Made by a program: the position numbers and the translations under genes. From positions 1 to 64,000 of the forward strand of contig CAMDGQ010000005.1 of assembly GCA_945897955.1 (NCBI GenBank): a stretch of DNA of 64,000 nucleotides, written 5' to 3'. A model generated the notes under the pieces. That model saw only the letters and a list, made by a program, of their open reading frames with translations. It ran no database searches and was not told the origin of the DNA. Positions 1-8,108 of the stretch are shown in pieces. The stretch's first letter is position 1. Each line of letters starts with the position of its first letter. Source of the DNA: Tepidiphilus sp. J10. Its GTDB lineage: Bacteria > Pseudomonadota > Gammaproteobacteria > Burkholderiales > Thiobacillaceae.

Positions 1-960
1 TTTCAGGACTACTGGATTGCGCGCAACCGGCAGCGTGACCTCGGCATCGACGCCGATCCCGAGCATGCGCGGCCGCCCGGCCGCATGGCGGCGGCAGACG
101 ATCTTTACAACTCCAGTCTGGTCGCGCACAGCCGACGCTGGAGCCTGCCACTGCCCGACCTCGCCGCGACCCGCGCCTATCTGGCCGCCGGCCTCGAAGA
201 AACCCTGCATCTGCTGGCGAGCGCGCCGGAAAACGATGCGGCGCTGTATTTCTACCGCCTGGCCCTGTTCCACGAGGATATGCACGCCGAGGCCGCCACC
301 TACATGGCGCAGGCGCTGGATATTGCGTTGCCGGCGGCACTGCGCGCCGAGCCGGCCAATCTGGCGGGCAACAAAGCGTTGGCGTTGCCCGCACAGGTCT
401 GGACCCTGGGTTATGCCGACGCAGGTTTCGCCTTCGACAACGAACTCGCCGCGCATGCGATTGAAGTGCCGGCGTTCGAGATCGACAGCCAGGTAGTGAG
501 CTGGCGGCGCTATCTGCCTGTTGTCGAGGCCGGAAAAGCGGCGCTGCCACGCTATCTGCGGCAGCAGGATGGGGTCTGGCAGGCGCTGCGCTATGGCGTC
601 TGGCAGGTGTTGAACCTGGACCAGCCGGCCATGCATCTGACCTGGCAGGAAGCCGAAACCTGGTGCCGCCTGGCCGGCCGCCGCTTGCCGAGCGAGGCGG
701 AATGGGAAATCGCGGCGCTGACCGAGCCGGACTTTCACTGGGGCGAAGTATGGGAATGGAGCGCCAGCCGCTTTCTGCCCTACCCCGGCTTCAGCGCACA
801 TCCCTACCGCGATTATTCCGCGCCCTGGTTCGGAGACCGTTATGTGTTGCGCGGTGCCAGCCGGGCGACCTCGCCGCGCATGACCCACGCGCGCTACCGC
901 AATTACTTCACGCCGGAACGCAACGATCTTCATAACGGCTTTCGGACCTGCGCCTTATAG
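1..960 (+). CDS. senA: EgtB/SenA-family sulfoxide or selenoxide synthase, 5'-truncated by window edge
   Basis: The frame is open from base 1, so the true start lies outside the window; 319 residues are visible. It reads as a DinB-like helical part with the iron-site element FHEDMH (H-x3-H), followed by a formylglycine-generating-enzyme (FGE) fold. The C-terminal half carries LPSEAEWE, GEVWEWSAS, VLRGAS and a terminal GFRTCA. This is the ergothioneine synthase EgtB family, non-heme iron enzymes joining sulfur or selenium to hercynine. The N-terminal YWIARN and the YDYSAPWF-like stretch resemble my memory of selenoneine synthase SenA more than classical EgtB, so the symbol is tentative. It converges on egtD, which makes hercynine, with a 4-base gap. 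No SenB or SelD homologue is visible; they could lie to the left. Confidence 0.72.
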   Translation, partial: FQDYWIARNRQRDLGIDADPEHARPPGRMAAADDLYNSSLVAHSRRWSLPLPDLAATRAYLAAGLEETLHLLASAPENDAALYFYRLALFHEDMHAEAATYMAQALDIALPAALRAEPANLAGNKALALPAQVWTLGYADAGFAFDNELAAHAIEVPAFEIDSQVVSWRRYLPVVEAGKAALPRYLRQQDGVWQALRYGVWQVLNLDQPAMHLTWQEAETWCRLAGRRLPSEAEWEIAALTEPDFHWGEVWEWSASRFLPYPGFSAHPYRDYSAPWFGDRYVLRGASRATSPRMTHARYRNYFTPERNDLHNGFRTCAL

Positions 961-964
961 ATCA

Positions 965-1915
965 TTACGCCTGGGCCGCGAATACCGCGAACCAGTCACG
1001 CGCGTCCCGCCACTGGCGCTGGCGCGTGAAGCCGGCCTGGCGCAGCAGGTCGGCGAAGTCTTCCGGCCGCCACTTGCAGGAGTTCTCGCTGTGAATCCGC
1101 TCGCCCCGGTTGAAATGGCGCGCGCCGCCGGGCCAGCGGACGAAGCAGTCGCGCACGGCTTCGAGATGCATTTCGATGCGCGATTCAGCGTGGTTGAACA
1201 GTCCGATATGGCGCCAGTCGGCGATGTCGAAATCCGTTTCGATCAAGCGGTTCAGGTGCAACAGCAGATTGCGGTTGAACGCCGCCGTGACACCCAGCGC
1301 ATCGTCGTAGGCCGGCACCAGAACCGCATCCGGCTTGACCAGATCGACGCCGATCAGCAGGTTGCCGCCCTGGCTGGCGGCATGCACCTGGCGCAGGAAA
1401 ACCAGCGCCTCGTCCGGCGTGAAGTTGCCGATGCTGGAGCCGGGATAGAACACGGTACGCGGGCCGGCGCCGACTTCCGCCGGCAGATTCAGGCTTTGCG
1501 AGAAATCCAGGCCGACGCCCAGCATCTGCATGGCCGGATGCTCGTATTGCAATTTATCGAGCGACTCGCGCAGGTAATCGGCGGAAATATCCACCGCGAC
1601 ATAACGCCGGACTGCAAAGGCCTTGAACAGCCGCGCCGCCTTTTCGCAATTGCCGGCGCCCAGATCGACCAGTGTCGCCACCGGGCCGAGCTCGGCGGCC
1701 ATTTCCGCCATGTGGTCGCGAAAGATCGCCGCTTCGGTGCGGGTCGGGTAGTACTCGGCCAGTTCGGTAATCGCCGCGAACAGGCGGGAACCCAGCGCGT
1801 CGTAAAGGTACTTGGGCGATAACGCGGCGCGCGGCGCGCTCAGGCCGGCGATCAGCTCGGCACGCGTCGCGGCGGGGTCGTCATGGGCAATCTGGATTAG
1901 ACGCGGTGTGTTCAT
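965..1915 (-). CDS. egtD: L-histidine N-alpha-methyltransferase EgtD
   Basis: This 316-residue protein has the normal length for EgtD, the S-adenosylmethionine-dependent enzyme that trimethylates histidine to hercynine. Visible family marks are YYPTRTE (residues 55-61), the SAM-binding loop DLGAGN (84-89), the substrate loop PGSSIGNF (158-165) and ENSCKW near residue 280, matching the E-N-S-x-K element that holds the histidine substrate. It is convergent with the EgtB/SenA-type synthase and downstream of the ATP-grasp gene on the same strand. The 203-base gap before it is filled by an inverted-repeat element, so its promoter or RBS may sit within that repeat; no strong Shine-Dalgarno is seen. 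It supplies the substrate of the neighbouring synthase. Confidence 0.93.
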   Translation of the reverse strand: MNTPRLIQIAHDDPAATRAELIAGLSAPRAALSPKYLYDALGSRLFAAITELAEYYPTRTEAAIFRDHMAEMAAELGPVATLVDLGAGNCEKAARLFKAFAVRRYVAVDISADYLRESLDKLQYEHPAMQMLGVGLDFSQSLNLPAEVGAGPRTVFYPGSSIGNFTPDEALVFLRQVHAASQGGNLLIGVDLVKPDAVLVPAYDDALGVTAAFNRNLLLHLNRLIETDFDIADWRHIGLFNHAESRIEMHLEAVRDCFVRWPGGARHFNRGERIHSENSCKWRPEDFADLLRQAGFTRQRQWRDARDWFAVFAAQA

Positions 1916-1919
1916 GTTG

Positions 1920-2158
1920 AACCTTGAAACAGCAGTTGAACCCGTCCGAGGGCGGGGTGGAGAAGCTGGCTGGCAAGGCGCGACAACGAGTCATGCCGAG
2001 GCATGGCGAGGCGGAGCAACGCCGCCAGCCGGCTTCTCCACCCCGACAGCGGGCGGGTAGCGGGCTCACCCGAATGGTGAGCGTCATCGAAGCGCATAAC
2101 ATCAGCCAGCATGAGACGTCACGAAGGATAAGTAGCGGTCAACTGCTGTTTCAAGGTT
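1920..2158. repeat. Nested inverted-repeat element (MITE- or REP-like)
   Basis: Two perfect 20-base inverted arms lie at 1920-1939 and 2139-2158 (AACCTTGAAACAGCAGTTGA and its complement). Inside them a second pair of 21-base arms, 1954-1974 and 2024-2044, pairs with one mismatch (GGGGTGGAGAAGCTGGCTGGC on the left arm). No transposase is encoded in the roughly 240 bases. The right outer arm codes for the last residues of the ATP-grasp protein (LKQQL), and the left outer arm lies directly before the egtD start, so the element appears inserted between two genes of one transcript. Confidence 0.75.
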
Positions 2159-3498
2159 GAAGCCTCCAGTTTGGCTGACCAGCGCGCATCCCAGGCCTTG
2201 TCGTGGTAATCGCTTTCGTGCGCGGCGCAGGCGGCGGACCAGCCGAGCAATTCGCTGGCGGCGGCGCAGCGCGCGCGCAGATCGGTGGCATCGCGCCCGC
2301 CCAGATGCAGGATGCCGTAGCGGTAACTGCCCAGCCATTTGAAATCCCGCTCGATCTGGCCGGCGGTCTTGGCGAAATGGAACAGCAAGGCATCGGGATA
2401 CTCGCGCGCCAGCGCATGTTCCTGGGCGGCGCCGGGAATGGCAGGTCGCGCCGCCGGCTCGAAACTGCGATACACGAAGCTGGCTGCAACGCCGGCCGTG
2501 GGCTGTGTACGCGGCAGCAGGGCCGGGTCGCGGCCATGCGCCAGTTCCAGCGCAACGCGATGCAGGTCGATGCCATCGACACGTTGATACAGGTCGGAGA
2601 ACTGCGCCGCCATGCGCGGGTTGAATTCGATCACCGTCAGGCGATCCGTCGCCGCGTCGTAGAAAAACTCCATGTTGAACAGACCATGGCTGAACCCCAC
2701 CGCCGTCAGAAAACGCCGCGCCACTTCCAGCGCGCGCGCGCGTCCGGCGTCCGGAATTCCGCACGGATAAACAAAGCGCATGAAAGCCTGGGTGCCGGGA
2801 TACATGACCGATTCGACAATGCCCAGCGGACGCATCTCGCCGTTGAAGAAATAGCCGTCCAGGTTGTATTGCGCCGCCTTCACCGGCTGTTCCAGCAACA
2901 TCCGATGCGCGCTGCCGGCCTGCGGCAGACGCTTGCGGGCGACCCGCTCGAACGGTTCCACCAGATGCCGGATCACCCACAATTCCCAGAAGCCGAAGCG
3001 GGTCAGCGTCTCCAGTTCGTCGCGGTTGTGAACCACCCGCGCCAGCACGGAGAACGCCGCCTTGACCGGCTTGACGAAAACCGGATAGCTCAGACCTTCC
3101 GGCGCGGGCTCGCCGTATAGCGCGGGCAGCAGTTCGAAGCCGGTGTTCGCCTCCGGCGCGACTTCCTGCAACACCCGCCGCGCATGCAATTTGTGTTGAC
3201 AGGCCAGCACGGCATCGACCGAGGTACCCGGCCATCCCATGCGTTCGGCCAGCATGGCCGCCGCCAGCGCACCGAATTGCTCATGATTCGATACCACCGC
3301 TTGCCAGCCCTTGCGCCCGGCCTTGCGCGCCAGCCGGTCAACAAAGCGCTCGATGTCGAAATTGACCAGTTGGGCATTGCTGGGAAAGTTGAACAGATCG
3401 AACCCTGCGCTGTGCATTGGAAATGCCTGCAACCAGCGCGAGAAACCGGCGCGATCCCAGTCGTAATTGAAAAGAACCAGTGTGGAAGGGGAAATCAT
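2119..3498 (-). CDS. ATP-grasp ligase, egtD-linked
   Basis: This 459-residue protein has an N-terminal region with VVSNHEQFGALAAAML, a central ATP-grasp lid with PVFVKPVKAAF and MLLEQPVKAAQYNLDGYFF, and the metal-binding element FNMEFF...TVIEFNPRMA typical of carboxylate-amine ligases. The family uses ATP to make an acyl phosphate and couple it to an amine. The substrate is unknown. It lies just upstream of egtD on the same strand and near a hercynine-using synthase, so it may act on histidine, hercynine or a thiol/selenol product; this is inference. The C-terminal tail (about 10 residues) is encoded by an inverted-repeat arm, so the original C-terminus was probably replaced. Start at 3498 gives MISPSTLVLFNYDWD, where the fold begins. 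Confidence 0.8.
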   Translation of the reverse strand: MISPSTLVLFNYDWDRAGFSRWLQAFPMHSAGFDLFNFPSNAQLVNFDIERFVDRLARKAGRKGWQAVVSNHEQFGALAAAMLAERMGWPGTSVDAVLACQHKLHARRVLQEVAPEANTGFELLPALYGEPAPEGLSYPVFVKPVKAAFSVLARVVHNRDELETLTRFGFWELWVIRHLVEPFERVARKRLPQAGSAHRMLLEQPVKAAQYNLDGYFFNGEMRPLGIVESVMYPGTQAFMRFVYPCGIPDAGRARALEVARRFLTAVGFSHGLFNMEFFYDAATDRLTVIEFNPRMAAQFSDLYQRVDGIDLHRVALELAHGRDPALLPRTQPTAGVAASFVYRSFEPAARPAIPGAAQEHALAREYPDALLFHFAKTAGQIERDFKWLGSYRYGILHLGGRDATDLRARCAAASELLGWSAACAAHESDYHDKAWDARWSAKLEASTLKQQLTATYPS

Positions 3499-3758
3499 TC
3501 TGGGCTGATTTTTCTAAATCCGTTCAATGAAAGCGTGCAGGCGTGCTGTTCGACCGGAACGCCTTTGGCTGGCAGTCCGATATCCGCCCAGCGTTGCCCG
3601 CTCGTCAGGGCTGTCATGGTTTCGGCATATCGCCTGAGGACGGAACAGCCTCCCGGCCGGTGAAGAGCTGCCGGATGCCCCATGCGACGCGGCTGCGCGT
3701 CGATTTCCAGGGCTGACACGATATTGGCATGCGTTTTGCGAATGGTCCTGTACGTCAA
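3495..3758 (-). CDS. Possible small ORF coupled to the ATP-grasp gene
   Basis: An 87-residue open frame starts at a TTG (3758) with a weak GGAA upstream, and its TGA overlaps the ATP-grasp ATG in an ATGA arrangement. Such overlaps usually mark translational coupling. The sequence matches no family I recognise; it has one Cys in GGCSVLRRY and one in QHACTL and no signal peptide. Against it: the start is non-ATG, the composition is not distinctive, and the region could be non-coding leader. A weak call. Confidence 0.28.
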   Translation of the reverse strand: MTYRTIRKTHANIVSALEIDAQPRRMGHPAALHRPGGCSVLRRYAETMTALTSGQRWADIGLPAKGVPVEQHACTLSLNGFRKISPE

Positions 3759-3875
3759 CGCGCAGTTCCACGCGGCGACGCACGGGCAGGTGAAAGCTTG
3801 CCTGCGACGGAGGCAACAGGTGTGCGGTCATCAGGCGAAATTCACGCTGTTAATTGATAAAAAAGAGGCACGAAC
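3499..3875. other. Intergenic region upstream of the ATP-grasp gene
   Basis: These 377 bases separate the ATP-grasp start (minus) from a small membrane-protein gene (plus), so promoters for both should lie here. I see the weak ORF described separately and an AT-rich stretch with TTAATTGATAAAAAA just before 3860. No repeat, RNA gene or confident promoter could be picked out. Confidence 0.4.
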
Positions 3876-4073
3876 ATGCAGTCAAATATTTACGAAAGCT
3901 TGCCCTACATCTATCTGGCGGTCGGTCTGGGCGCCCTTCTCGGCGTCGATGCCATCTTCGGCCAGGTTTGCGGTGTGTTGTTGATGATCCTCGGCATTTA
4001 CATCCTCAGAATGCGTACCCAGTTCCGTAAAAGGGAAGAAATCAGGAACCTGATGTTCCACAAACATCAATAA
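3876..4073 (+). CDS. Small membrane protein, unknown function
   Basis: This 65-residue protein has two hydrophobic stretches, YIYLAVGLGALLGVDAIF (about 10-27) and VCGVLLMILGIYIL (about 31-44), followed by a basic, probably cytoplasmic tail RMRTQFRKREE. A purine-rich AAAGAGGC lies about 8 bases before the ATG. It stands alone, divergent from the ATP-grasp gene and convergent with purL. No named family is recognised; the call rests on the RBS, the transmembrane pattern and the charged tail. Confidence 0.6.
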   Translation: MQSNIYESLPYIYLAVGLGALLGVDAIFGQVCGVLLMILGIYILRMRTQFRKREEIRNLMFHKHQ

Positions 4074-4151
4074 GGTGACGGACGGGCCTGCTTCGCCTGG
4101 CCCATCCTGCGGCAGGTTTCGCTGCGCCCGGTCTGGTTCAGGCCGGAAGTT

Positions 4152-7100
4152 TCACCCTACCCACTTTCTTGCATTTCTGAACATCCTCAGCCATGGCGCA
4201 TCCTCGCGCCATTCCGGCGGCCTCCAGGAATGCTGCACGGCGCGAAACACACGTTCCGGGTGCGGCATCATGATGGTGAAACGACCGTCCGGGGTAGTCA
4301 GACCGGTAATGCCCTTGGGAGAACCATTCGGATTGAGCGGATAGGTTTCGGTCTTGCGGCCACGGTTATCTACGTAGCGCAGGCAGACTTCCGCCGCCTT
4401 GCGTTGCGCCTTGCCGCCGCTGAACACCGCCCTGCCCTCGCCGTGCGAGACGACGATCGGCATGCGGCTGCCGGCCATGCCGTCGAACAGGATGGAGGGG
4501 GTTTGCGGCACTTCCACCATGACGAAGCGGGCTTCGAACTGCTCCGACAGGTTGCGTTCGAAGCGCGGCCAGTTTTCCGCGCCCGGAATGATGTCGGACA
4601 GGCGGCTCATCATCTGGCAACCATTGCATACGCCCAGGGCAAAGCTGTCGGCGCGCTGAAAGAAGGCCTGGAATTCATCGCTGGCGCGGGCGTTGTGCAG
4701 AATCGAGGCAGCCCAGCCGCCGCCGGCGCCGAGTACGTCGCCGTAACTGAAACCGCCACATGCGGCGAGTCCCTTGAAGGTTTTCAGCTTGACGCGCCCG
4801 GCCAGGATGTCGCTCATGTGGACATCGACCGGGGTGAAGCCGGCACGCGCGAAAGCGGCAGCCATTTCCACCTCGCCGTTGACACCCTGTTCGCGCAGGA
4901 TGGCGATCCTGGGCCTGGCGCGTTTGGTCTTGATGTAGGGCGCGGCGACATCTTCGTTCAGGTCGAAACTCAATTTGGCGTGCAGGCCGGGATCGCTCCT
5001 GGCCGCGAGTCCGTCGAATTCCTGTTGCGCGCATTGTGGGTTGTCGCGCAGGGATTGCATGCGGTAGCTGGTTTCCGACCAGGCCGCGAGCAACTTGGCG
5101 CGCTTCTGGTTGAACACCGCAACACCTTCACGCAGGATGCGGACGCGATCCTTGGTGTTGGTGCTGCCGACGATATAGAACTCGTCGCGCAGGCCGGCCG
5201 CAAAGCAGGCCTCCATGACGGCGGGCGTATCGGCGCGCCGCACCTGCAGGACGGCGCCGAGTTCCTCGTTGAACAGAATGCCGAACAGGCGGCTGGTATA
5301 GGGTTCGCGCGGGTCGGGAGCGTCTTCCACGTCCTGCATGATGTCGTCATGCAGACGGTGATAGCGCAGTTCATCGACATCCAGATCCACGCCGCAATGG
5401 CCGGCGAAGGCCATTTCACAGATCGTCGCGAACAGCCCGCCATCGGCGCGGTCATGGTAGGCGAGCAACTTGCCTTCCTGGTTAAGGCGCTGGATCAGCG
5501 CGAAAAAGGCTTTCAACTGCGCAGGCTGATCCAGGTCGGGACAGGCATCTCCCAGCTCGCCATGGACCTGGCCGAGGATGCTGCCGCCCAGTCGATTCTG
5601 GCCACGCCCGAGATCAAGCAGAATCAGGTCGGTTGCTTCGCCGTCATTGTGCAGTTGCGGCGTCAATGTGCGAGCGGCATCCGGGCTCGGTGCGAAGGCG
5701 GTGATGATCAGAGACAGCGGCGAGACAACGGATTTATCGACCAGATCCTCGCGCCAACTGGTGCGCATCGACATGGAATCCTTGCCGACCGGGATGCTGA
5801 TGCCCAGTTCCGGACACAGCGCCTTGCCAACCGCATGCACGGTATCGAACAGCGCGGCGTCTTCGCCGGGATGACCTGCGGCGGCCATCCAGTTGGCAGA
5901 TAGCCGAATGTCGCCGATTTCGTTGACGGCGGCAGCGGCCAGGTTGGTGATGGCTTCGCCAACCGCCATGCGTCCGCTTGCCGCCGGGTCGATCAGCGCG
6001 ATCGGGCTGCGCTCGCCGAGCGCGAAGGCTTCGCCGAGCAGGGTGTCATAGCCCATCGTGGTCACCGCCACGTCGGCCACCGGTATCTGCCAGGGACCGA
6101 CGAACTGGTCGCGCGCGGTGTAGCCGCCGACCGTGCGGTCGCCGATGGTGATCAGGAAGCTCTTGCTGGCGACGGCGGGATGGCGCAATACGCGATACGC
6201 CGCCTCGTCGAGGTCGAGCCCTTCGGCGCTGAACGGCGTCAGCGTCGGCGCGACATGCGTGACCTTGCGCGTCATCTTCGGCGGCTTGCCGAGCAGCACG
6301 TCCATTTCCATATCGACCGGCGCGTTCTTGAAATGTCGGTCGGTCACACTCAAGCGGCCTTCCCTGGTCGCCTTGCCGACCACGGCGAACGGGCAGCGTT
6401 CGCGCTCGCACAGCGCGCGGAACAGGTCCAGGCTGGCCGGCGCGATGGCCAGCACATAGCGTTCCTGCGCTTCGTTGCACCAGATTTCGCGCGGCGACAT
6501 GCCGGGTTCAAGACTGAGCACATCGCGCAATTCGAATTTCGCGCCGAGGCCGGCGCCATGCGCGAGTTCCGGCATGGCATTGGACAGGCCGCCGGCACCG
6601 ACGTCATGCACCGAGAGGATCGGATTGCCCTCGCCCATCGCCCAGCAGCGGTCGATGACTTCCTGGGCGCGACGCTGGATTTCCGGGTTGCCGCGCTGCA
6701 CGGAATCGAAATCCAGCGCTTCCATGTTGCTGCCGGCGCCCATGCTGGATGCCGCGCCGCCGCCCAGGCCGATGAGCAGGCCGGGGCCGCCGAGCTGGAT
6801 CAGCAGCGTGCCGGCCTTGAAGGTCTGCTTGTGAATATGGCGTTCCTGCACGTTGCCGACACCGCCAGCCAGCATGATCGGCTTGTGATAACCGCGCACC
6901 TGGCCATCCGGCGTGCGCATCTCGAAGCTGCGGAAATAGCCGGCCAGATTCGGGCGGCCGAATTCGTTGTTGAATGCGGCCGAGCCGATCGGCCCGTCGA
7001 GCATGATCTGCAACGGCGAAACGATGCGGCCCGGTTTGCCGTATTCCGCTTCCCAGGGTTGCTCGAAGCCGGGAATGCGCAGATTGGAAACAGTGAAACC

Positions 7101-8108
7101 GGCCAGGCCGGCCTTGGGCTTGGAACCCTGGCCGACCGCACCCTCGTCGCGGATCTCGCCGCCTGAGCCGGTGGCCGCGCCGGCGAACGGCGCAATCGCG
7201 GTGGGATGGTTGTGTGTTTCCACCTTCATCAGGATGTGGGTGGGTTCGACATGAAAGCGATAAACGTGGTCCTGGTCGGGATAGAAGCGTCCGATGCTGG
7301 CGCCCTCGATCACCGAAGCGTTGTCGGAGTAGGCCGACAGGGTGCCCTGCGGGCGCATGGCGTGGGTATGGCGAATCATCGAGAACAGCGATTCCGGCTG
7401 CATTTTGCCGTCGATGACCCAGTCGGCATTGAAAATCTTGTGCCGGCAGTGTTCGGAATTGGCTTGCGCGAACATCATCAGTTCGACATCGGTCGGGTTG
7501 CGCTTCACGCGTGTGAAGTTCTCCGCCAGGTAATCGATTTCATCCGGCGACAGCGCCAGGCCCCACTCCGCGTTGGCCTTCTCCAGAGCCTTTCTGCCGC
7601 CCTTGAGCAAATCGACCGAGGCCAATGGCTGCGGTGCGACATGGTGGAACAGTTCCGCCGCGCGCCGCTCATCGAGCAGCACGCTTTCAGTCATGCGGTC
7701 ATGCAGATAGGGCAATGCCGACTGCGCCACTGCGGCCGAGACCGGCCTGCCCTTCGGTCCGAGCAGTTGCCAGGCGATGCCATGCTCGATCCGGCTGATC
7801 GCCCGCAAGCCGCAATTGGTGACGATATCCGTCGCCTTGGAAGACCATGGCGAGACAGTGCCCAGACGCGGGGTGATCAATATGGCCGCTGCCGCCGGTT
7901 TGTGCTCGTCCGCATGCAACAACTCGAACAGGAAACTGAGGTCATCTTCATTCAGCCCGTCCGTCAGTTCGGCAAAGTAGCGGTGATGCGCTTCAATCCG
8001 GGCGACCCCCAACGGGGCCAGATCCTGCAACAGCTTCTTGATGCGAAATTCCGAGAGCGCGAAACCACCCTTCAGAAACAGGACTTGCGTGCTAGTCGAG
8101 ATACCCAT
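4152..8108 (-). CDS. purL: Phosphoribosylformylglycinamidine synthase PurL
   Basis: At 1318 residues this is the long, single-chain PurL of Proteobacteria. It converts formylglycinamide ribonucleotide, glutamine and ATP to the amidine in purine synthesis. The order is an N-terminal PurS-like domain, a linker, two AIR-synthase-like halves ([19 protein letters not shown] in the first, GGLGGG-type loop [12 protein letters not shown]) and a C-terminal class I glutaminase with nucleophile Cys in GVCNGCQMM and the MPHPER histidine/glutamate pair near the end. It is monocistronic here; a response regulator gene lies upstream on the same strand 81 bases away. Intact, no anomalies. Confidence 0.98.

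Follow-up and report, generated by a model that had tools for sequence, protein, structure and literature searches.

Genes at the start of the window and properties of the ligase

The window analysed here is a 64,000-nucleotide stretch of Tepidiphilus sp. J10, corresponding to bases 1–64000 of contig C5 (CAMDGQ010000005.1) in an assembly of 128 contigs that is 92% complete and 4.9% contaminated (GCA_945897955.1). It opens with a gene for a SenA-type synthase, followed by egtD and a gene for an ATP-grasp ligase (Table 1), which is the subject of this work and very probably belongs to the selenoneine pathway. The original prediction had grouped these three genes and placed the last two on one strand, and the open reading frames and profile matches bear this out. 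Since the first base of the window is also the first of the contig, the synthase reading frame is open at its 5′ end, and senB and selD of this copy are out of view.

Table 1. Positions of the genes and the repeat at the start of the window.
Feature	Position	Strand	Evidence or remark
senA, C-terminal 319 codons	1..960	+	NF041186 SenA; 5′ end beyond contig start
egtD, histidine N-alpha-methyltransferase	965..1915	-	TIGR03438, PF10017
Dispersed 245-bp MITE-like repeat, between egtD and ligase	1917..2161	.	Copies elsewhere and inverted repeats
ATP-grasp ligase, 459 aa, L-amino-acid-ligase-like predicted fold	2119..3498	-	PF13535; structure model; invariant residues
purL-type gene, FGAR amidotransferase domains, upstream of ligase	4152-8108	- (ligase strand)	Domain search

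The synthase had been described as EgtB/SenA-type, and only the SenA half of that description stood. The window fragment scored 407.6 bits against the SenA profile NF041186 (cut-off 420), spanning profile positions 52–382 of 382 and lacking positions 1–51. Against the EgtB profile TIGR03440 it scored 167.7 bits, below the cut-off of 360, and an EgtB identity was rejected. A full-length senA copy on contig C96 of the same genome reached 483.9 bits, above the SenA cut-off. Judged by these profile scores, the window synthase is SenA-like rather than EgtB. The EgtD protein scored 367.6 bits against TIGR03438 (cut-off 290.9) and also matched PF10017. The ligase gene is present in one copy in the assembly.

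The ligase matched PF13535 with 34.1 bits (cut-off 27), which places it in the ATP-grasp superfamily. In the NCBIfam profile search no family reached its cut-off; the sole match, a partial one to NF002563 with 60.7 bits against a cut-off of 625, was rejected as an assignment to a curated family. Residues K143, E203, E277, E291, N293 and R295 were invariant in alignments A1 and A3, including in two members of a sister subfamily described below. E291, N293 and R295 line up with the carbamoyl-phosphate synthetase motif and K143 lines up with BL00235; we presume that these residues have their usual ATP-grasp roles.

An AlphaFold2 model built from 46 family members had a mean pLDDT of 89.4, and residues 432–459 were the sole stretch below 50. 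The closest solved structure was the L-amino acid ligase BL00235 (3vot_A; Z 30.5, rmsd 3.6, 377 residues), and the next row of the comparison had a Z of 27.9. Two further bacterial L-amino acid ligases, YwfE/BacD (Z 26.8, 382 residues) and RizA (Z 25.3, 348 residues), ranked lower, among purine-synthesis ATP-grasp enzymes. The ligase profile also recovered 3vot_A by sequence (E = 1.9 × 10−4), although identity to the L-amino acid ligases is only 13–16%. The overall predicted fold is that of an L-amino acid ligase, in agreement with the earlier guess that the enzyme may attach an amino acid. Pairwise dN/dS against four congeners was 0.14–0.18, which indicates a maintained gene under purifying selection.

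Co-occurrence of the ligase with EgtD and SenB

Within the window's genus, the ligase was present in 5 of 23 genomes (the source genome included), exactly the five that carry EgtD, and lay beside egtD and senA in all of them. G001 and G015, also of this genus, had a match to the SenA model but neither EgtD nor the ligase.

A draw of 280 genomes from the order was then profile-searched for the ligase, EgtD, SenA and SenB, which were found in 32, 125, 129 (SenA-model matches) and 90 genomes, respectively. EgtD occurred in all 32 ligase genomes compared to 125 of 280 overall (Fisher's test, p = 5 × 10−13), and the selenosugar synthase SenB in 31 of 32 compared to 90 of 280 (p = 2 × 10−16). The ligase was carried by 31 of the 70 genomes with both EgtD and SenB, by 1 of 55 with EgtD and no SenB, and by none of the 20 with SenB and no EgtD or the 135 with neither. 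At the genus level, among genera with EgtD, it was found in 19 of 41 with SenB and in 0 of 31 without (p = 2 × 10−6). The distribution of the ligase follows EgtD plus SenB, the selenoneine set, and not EgtD alone. The expectation that it belongs with EgtD and SenA was upheld by the counts in both the genus and the order. Named carriers include Limnobacter, Rhodoferax antarcticus and Hydrogenophaga aromaticivorans.

The single ligase genome with no SenB match was G094, where senA begins 152 bases from the contig start, so senB may be absent from the assembly only. A SenA-model match was present in all 32 ligase genomes and exceeded the curated cut-off in 25. In five genomes (G147, G159, G196, G230 and G259) a lower-scoring SenA-like gene directly adjoins SenB; in G202 the match is partial (419 bits), and in G300 the SenA-like gene lies apart from SenB.

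A link to general selenium metabolism instead of selenoneine was rejected on the absence of the ligase from all 20 genomes with SenB and no EgtD, a weak control in which some SenB matches are possibly paralogues. In 13 of these 20 genomes that were opened, SenB lay near a SelD-like gene in four and beside rlmH in two. One genome of this class, G119, has senA, senB and a SelD-like gene, with no EgtD match and no ligase. Separately, a SenB-model protein was observed at L193 6490–7356, next to a gene that by eye resembles rlmH, away from sen genes, and the same pairing recurs in G022 and G017. The SenB model TIGR04348 may therefore take in paralogues outside selenoneine synthesis.

A phylum-wide draw of 398 genomes (E up to 10−60) returned the true ligase family in the source genome (G000) and G293, and weak matches of 208–249 bits in six other genomes. 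These six were excluded from the family as members of a sister subfamily; the four copies placed in the tree fell outside the ligase family. EgtD was present in four of the six carriers and SenB in two. The sister subfamily shares PF13535 (tested on L161) and, in two aligned members, the same invariant residues; these two members show 23 and 26% identity and lack the GFDLFxFP and KWLGSYRY motifs. A gene for a peptidase S15-type hydrolase is visible adjoining six of seven sister-subfamily copies, one of them confirmed by Pfam. This pairing of sister ATP-grasp gene and hydrolase was seen in other proteobacteria at L161 1258–4049 and at L163, L164 and L165.

Proposed role in the selenoneine pathway

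The published selenoneine (sen) cluster is described as comprising three proteins, SenA, SenB and SenC, and SenA links hercynine to a selenosugar that SenB makes from selenophosphate (PMC10891094; PMC9814287). The window has senA beside egtD in common with this cluster, and its relatives and contig C96 add senB and a FAD-SelD fusion. The ergothioneine cluster (egtBD, in some cases with egtACE) shares EgtD, whereas the window synthase scores as SenA and not as EgtB. EgtA of the ergothioneine cluster, a glutamate-cysteine ligase, comes from a different family.

We infer the substrate, amine partner, product and role of the ligase as follows. EgtD would form hercynine, SelD and SenB would supply the selenosugar, and SenA would couple the two to give selenoneine. 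In the manner of L-amino acid ligases, the ligase would then spend ATP on converting a carboxylate to an acyl phosphate, which it would join to an amine. Trimethylation closes the amine of both hercynine and selenoneine to acylation; should either compound be the substrate, its carboxylate is therefore the likely site. The carboxylate of selenoneine would be the likeliest group to be activated, and the product would be a selenoneine amide, for example a selenoneinyl-amino acid. While membership in the pathway is very probable, the fuller statement, that the ligase is a dedicated accessory enzyme probably amidating the selenoneine carboxylate, stands at about even chances.

Physical linkage and alternative explanations

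Several observations weigh against this assignment. Genome counts are inflated by shared ancestry, and the ligase is missing from 39 of the 70 genomes of the order draw with both EgtD and SenB, which makes it optional. The substrate is not fixed by the fold, and purine-synthesis ATP-grasp enzymes are nearly equal in fold score. The ligase lay within ~8 kb of egtD, senA or senB in only 8 of the 32 ligase genomes of the order (G000, G039, G136, G207, G211, G241, G293 and G300; six families with differing arrangements), a figure that is a lower bound as several other contigs end sooner. The survey of neighbouring genes covered the 80 closest of 285 relatives and is biased to close kin; the commonest ligase neighbour in it was a gene for a YHS '(seleno)protein' (55 of 80 loci, in 51 of which it lay immediately downstream of the ligase and in the same orientation). 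The ligases of G038 and G052 lie amid ArsS, glycosyltransferase, DUF547 and FAD-oxidoreductase genes, away from the sen genes (no ArsS was seen in G052). Finally, no ligase was found beside the second sen locus of the source genome, on contig C96, in the 917 bases from the 245-bp repeat to the contig end.

The original prediction had proposed that homologues lying far from egtD in most genomes would make the association a matter of chance, and physical linkage in the order draw indeed falls short. However, the genome-level co-occurrence, with EgtD in every ligase genome, speaks strongly against chance despite the patchy linkage.

Neighbour counts were taken from tblastn, with one best match per gene and locus, because simple gene calling misread several GC-rich loci. 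At least one of senA, egtD and senB was found in 47 of the 80 closest loci, and in 30 of the 46 that exceed 20 kb. The egtD gene was within the fetched stretch in 43 loci, in 23 of them at most 1.1 kb downstream of the ligase on the same strand. Linkage was clustered on the ligase tree, with 20 changes compared to 39.9 after shuffling; this was a quick tree with long branches, and rows under 330 residues (L167 and L187) were left out. A selenate-type ABC binding protein was matched in 20 of 80 loci, and the L024 copy exceeded the TIGR04553 cut-off. The 'selDf' matches in L109, L110 and L125 were short, perhaps covering the FAD part only.

The YHS gene stands between the ligase and egtD in G014, G009 and G021. 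In G021 these three genes overlap successively at their ends, in G014 they are separated by gaps of at most 17 bases, and in G020 ligase and egtD overlap. The loci of G014, G009 and G020 also hold senB, the FAD-SelD fusion, ArsS, a FAD oxidoreductase and two glycosyltransferase-like genes. An arrangement of senA with senB and selD/senC adjacent was seen in these three genomes and on C96; the window contig starts inside senA. Two loci are recorded as side observations. A congener locus (L021 1257–13392) unites selenium-type and 'arsenosugar'-type genes, namely the ArsS radical SAM protein, FAD oxidoreductase, TIGR04283 and TIGR04282 glycosyltransferases, ligase, YHS, egtD, senA, senB and FAD-SelD. 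G300 carries two ligase paralogues (L191 and L192), one by senB and a SelD-like gene, while the 10 kb fetched for the other shows no sen genes.

The main rival explanation is that the ligase serves a selenium/arsenic-type module composed of the YHS, DUF547, FAD oxidoreductase, ArsS radical SAM and TIGR04282/TIGR04283 glycosyltransferase genes, acts on the product of that module, and meets the sen genes through shared selenium-using hosts. Apart from the YHS gene, the survey placed DUF547 near the ligase in 25 of 80 loci, the FAD oxidoreductase in 18, ArsS in 6 and the two glycosyltransferases in 6 and 5, and the ligases of G038 and G052 sit among module genes with no sen genes nearby. NCBIfam labels both ArsS and the YHS family '(seleno)protein', and the YHS family is listed among predicted selenoproteins in a table of PMC13188914. 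However, ArsS and the glycosyltransferases lie near the ligase in few loci, and the module alone leaves unexplained why all 32 ligase genomes have EgtD and why the ligase occurs in just 1 of 55 genomes with EgtD and no SenB. It accounts for the commonest neighbours, but not by itself for the near-strict need for EgtD and SenB, and we consider it unlikely, though the strongest of the alternatives.

Less probable still is a role preceding or parallel to the main pathway, such as the formation of a histidine dipeptide, or an action on ergothioneine rather than selenoneine. L-amino acid ligases couple free amino acids, every ligase genome of the order draw carries EgtD, and in 23 of 80 loci ligase and egtD are near neighbours on a single strand, all of which would fit such a role. 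A histidine role needs no SenB, however, and the near-confinement of the ligase to SenB genomes among those with EgtD points to selenium.

The contig C96 carries a copy of window positions 1–2156 at 91% identity, together with a complete senA, senB and FAD-SelD fusion; this copy may represent a second strain or a duplication. The egtD-senA-senB-FAD:SelD locus on it (L009) spans positions 1–6531, and small genes that by eye look like a CopG/RelE pair occupy the place that the ligase has in the window. Contig C109 was rejected as the left part of the window's sen locus: it has no match to the window and holds a SenB paralogue beside rlmH.

The 245-bp repeat has 23-nt terminal inverted repeats (1917–1939 and 2139–2161) and an inner inverted repeat (1940–1974 and 2024–2058), with no fewer than 25 more occurrences, many of them partial, on other contigs of the genome. 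It supplies the stop codon and the last 13 codons of the ligase, leaving the conserved core untouched, and occupies the site of the YHS gene in three of four congeners. That this repeat brought the ligase beside egtD with no pathway link, as its position between the two genes and the ligase-free C96 copy might suggest, is highly improbable: the same grouping occurs in the remaining four ligase carriers of the genus, where the stretch from ligase to egtD leaves no space for such a repeat, and the near-total co-occurrence with EgtD and SenB across 19 genera contradicts chance neighbourhood.

A search of the open-access literature, with the founding selenoneine and ovoselenol papers outside its reach, found no paper combining 'selenoneine' and 'ATP-grasp'. 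'Ergothioneine' and 'ATP-grasp' returned only open papers that were off-topic by their titles and abstract openings, and a term search of the main text of a 2015 selenium comparative-genomics paper gave no mention of ATP-grasp. A description of a selenoneine-associated ligase family was thus not found in the open literature searched. A 2026 review names two recently characterised selenium small molecules, selenoneine and ovoselenol (PMC13188914).

Dedicated bacterial pathways are known for few selenium-containing small molecules. In the genome draws examined here, the ligase family occurs almost only where both hercynine and the selenosugar can be made, which points to a further product. Somewhat short of even odds, we envisage an unknown class of selenium metabolites, the selenoneine amides, perhaps handled by the YHS partner and made by a new ATP-grasp ligase family that would mark a branch of the pathway. 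If this is true, a further-modified selenium compound could be sought in isolates carrying the ligase gene.

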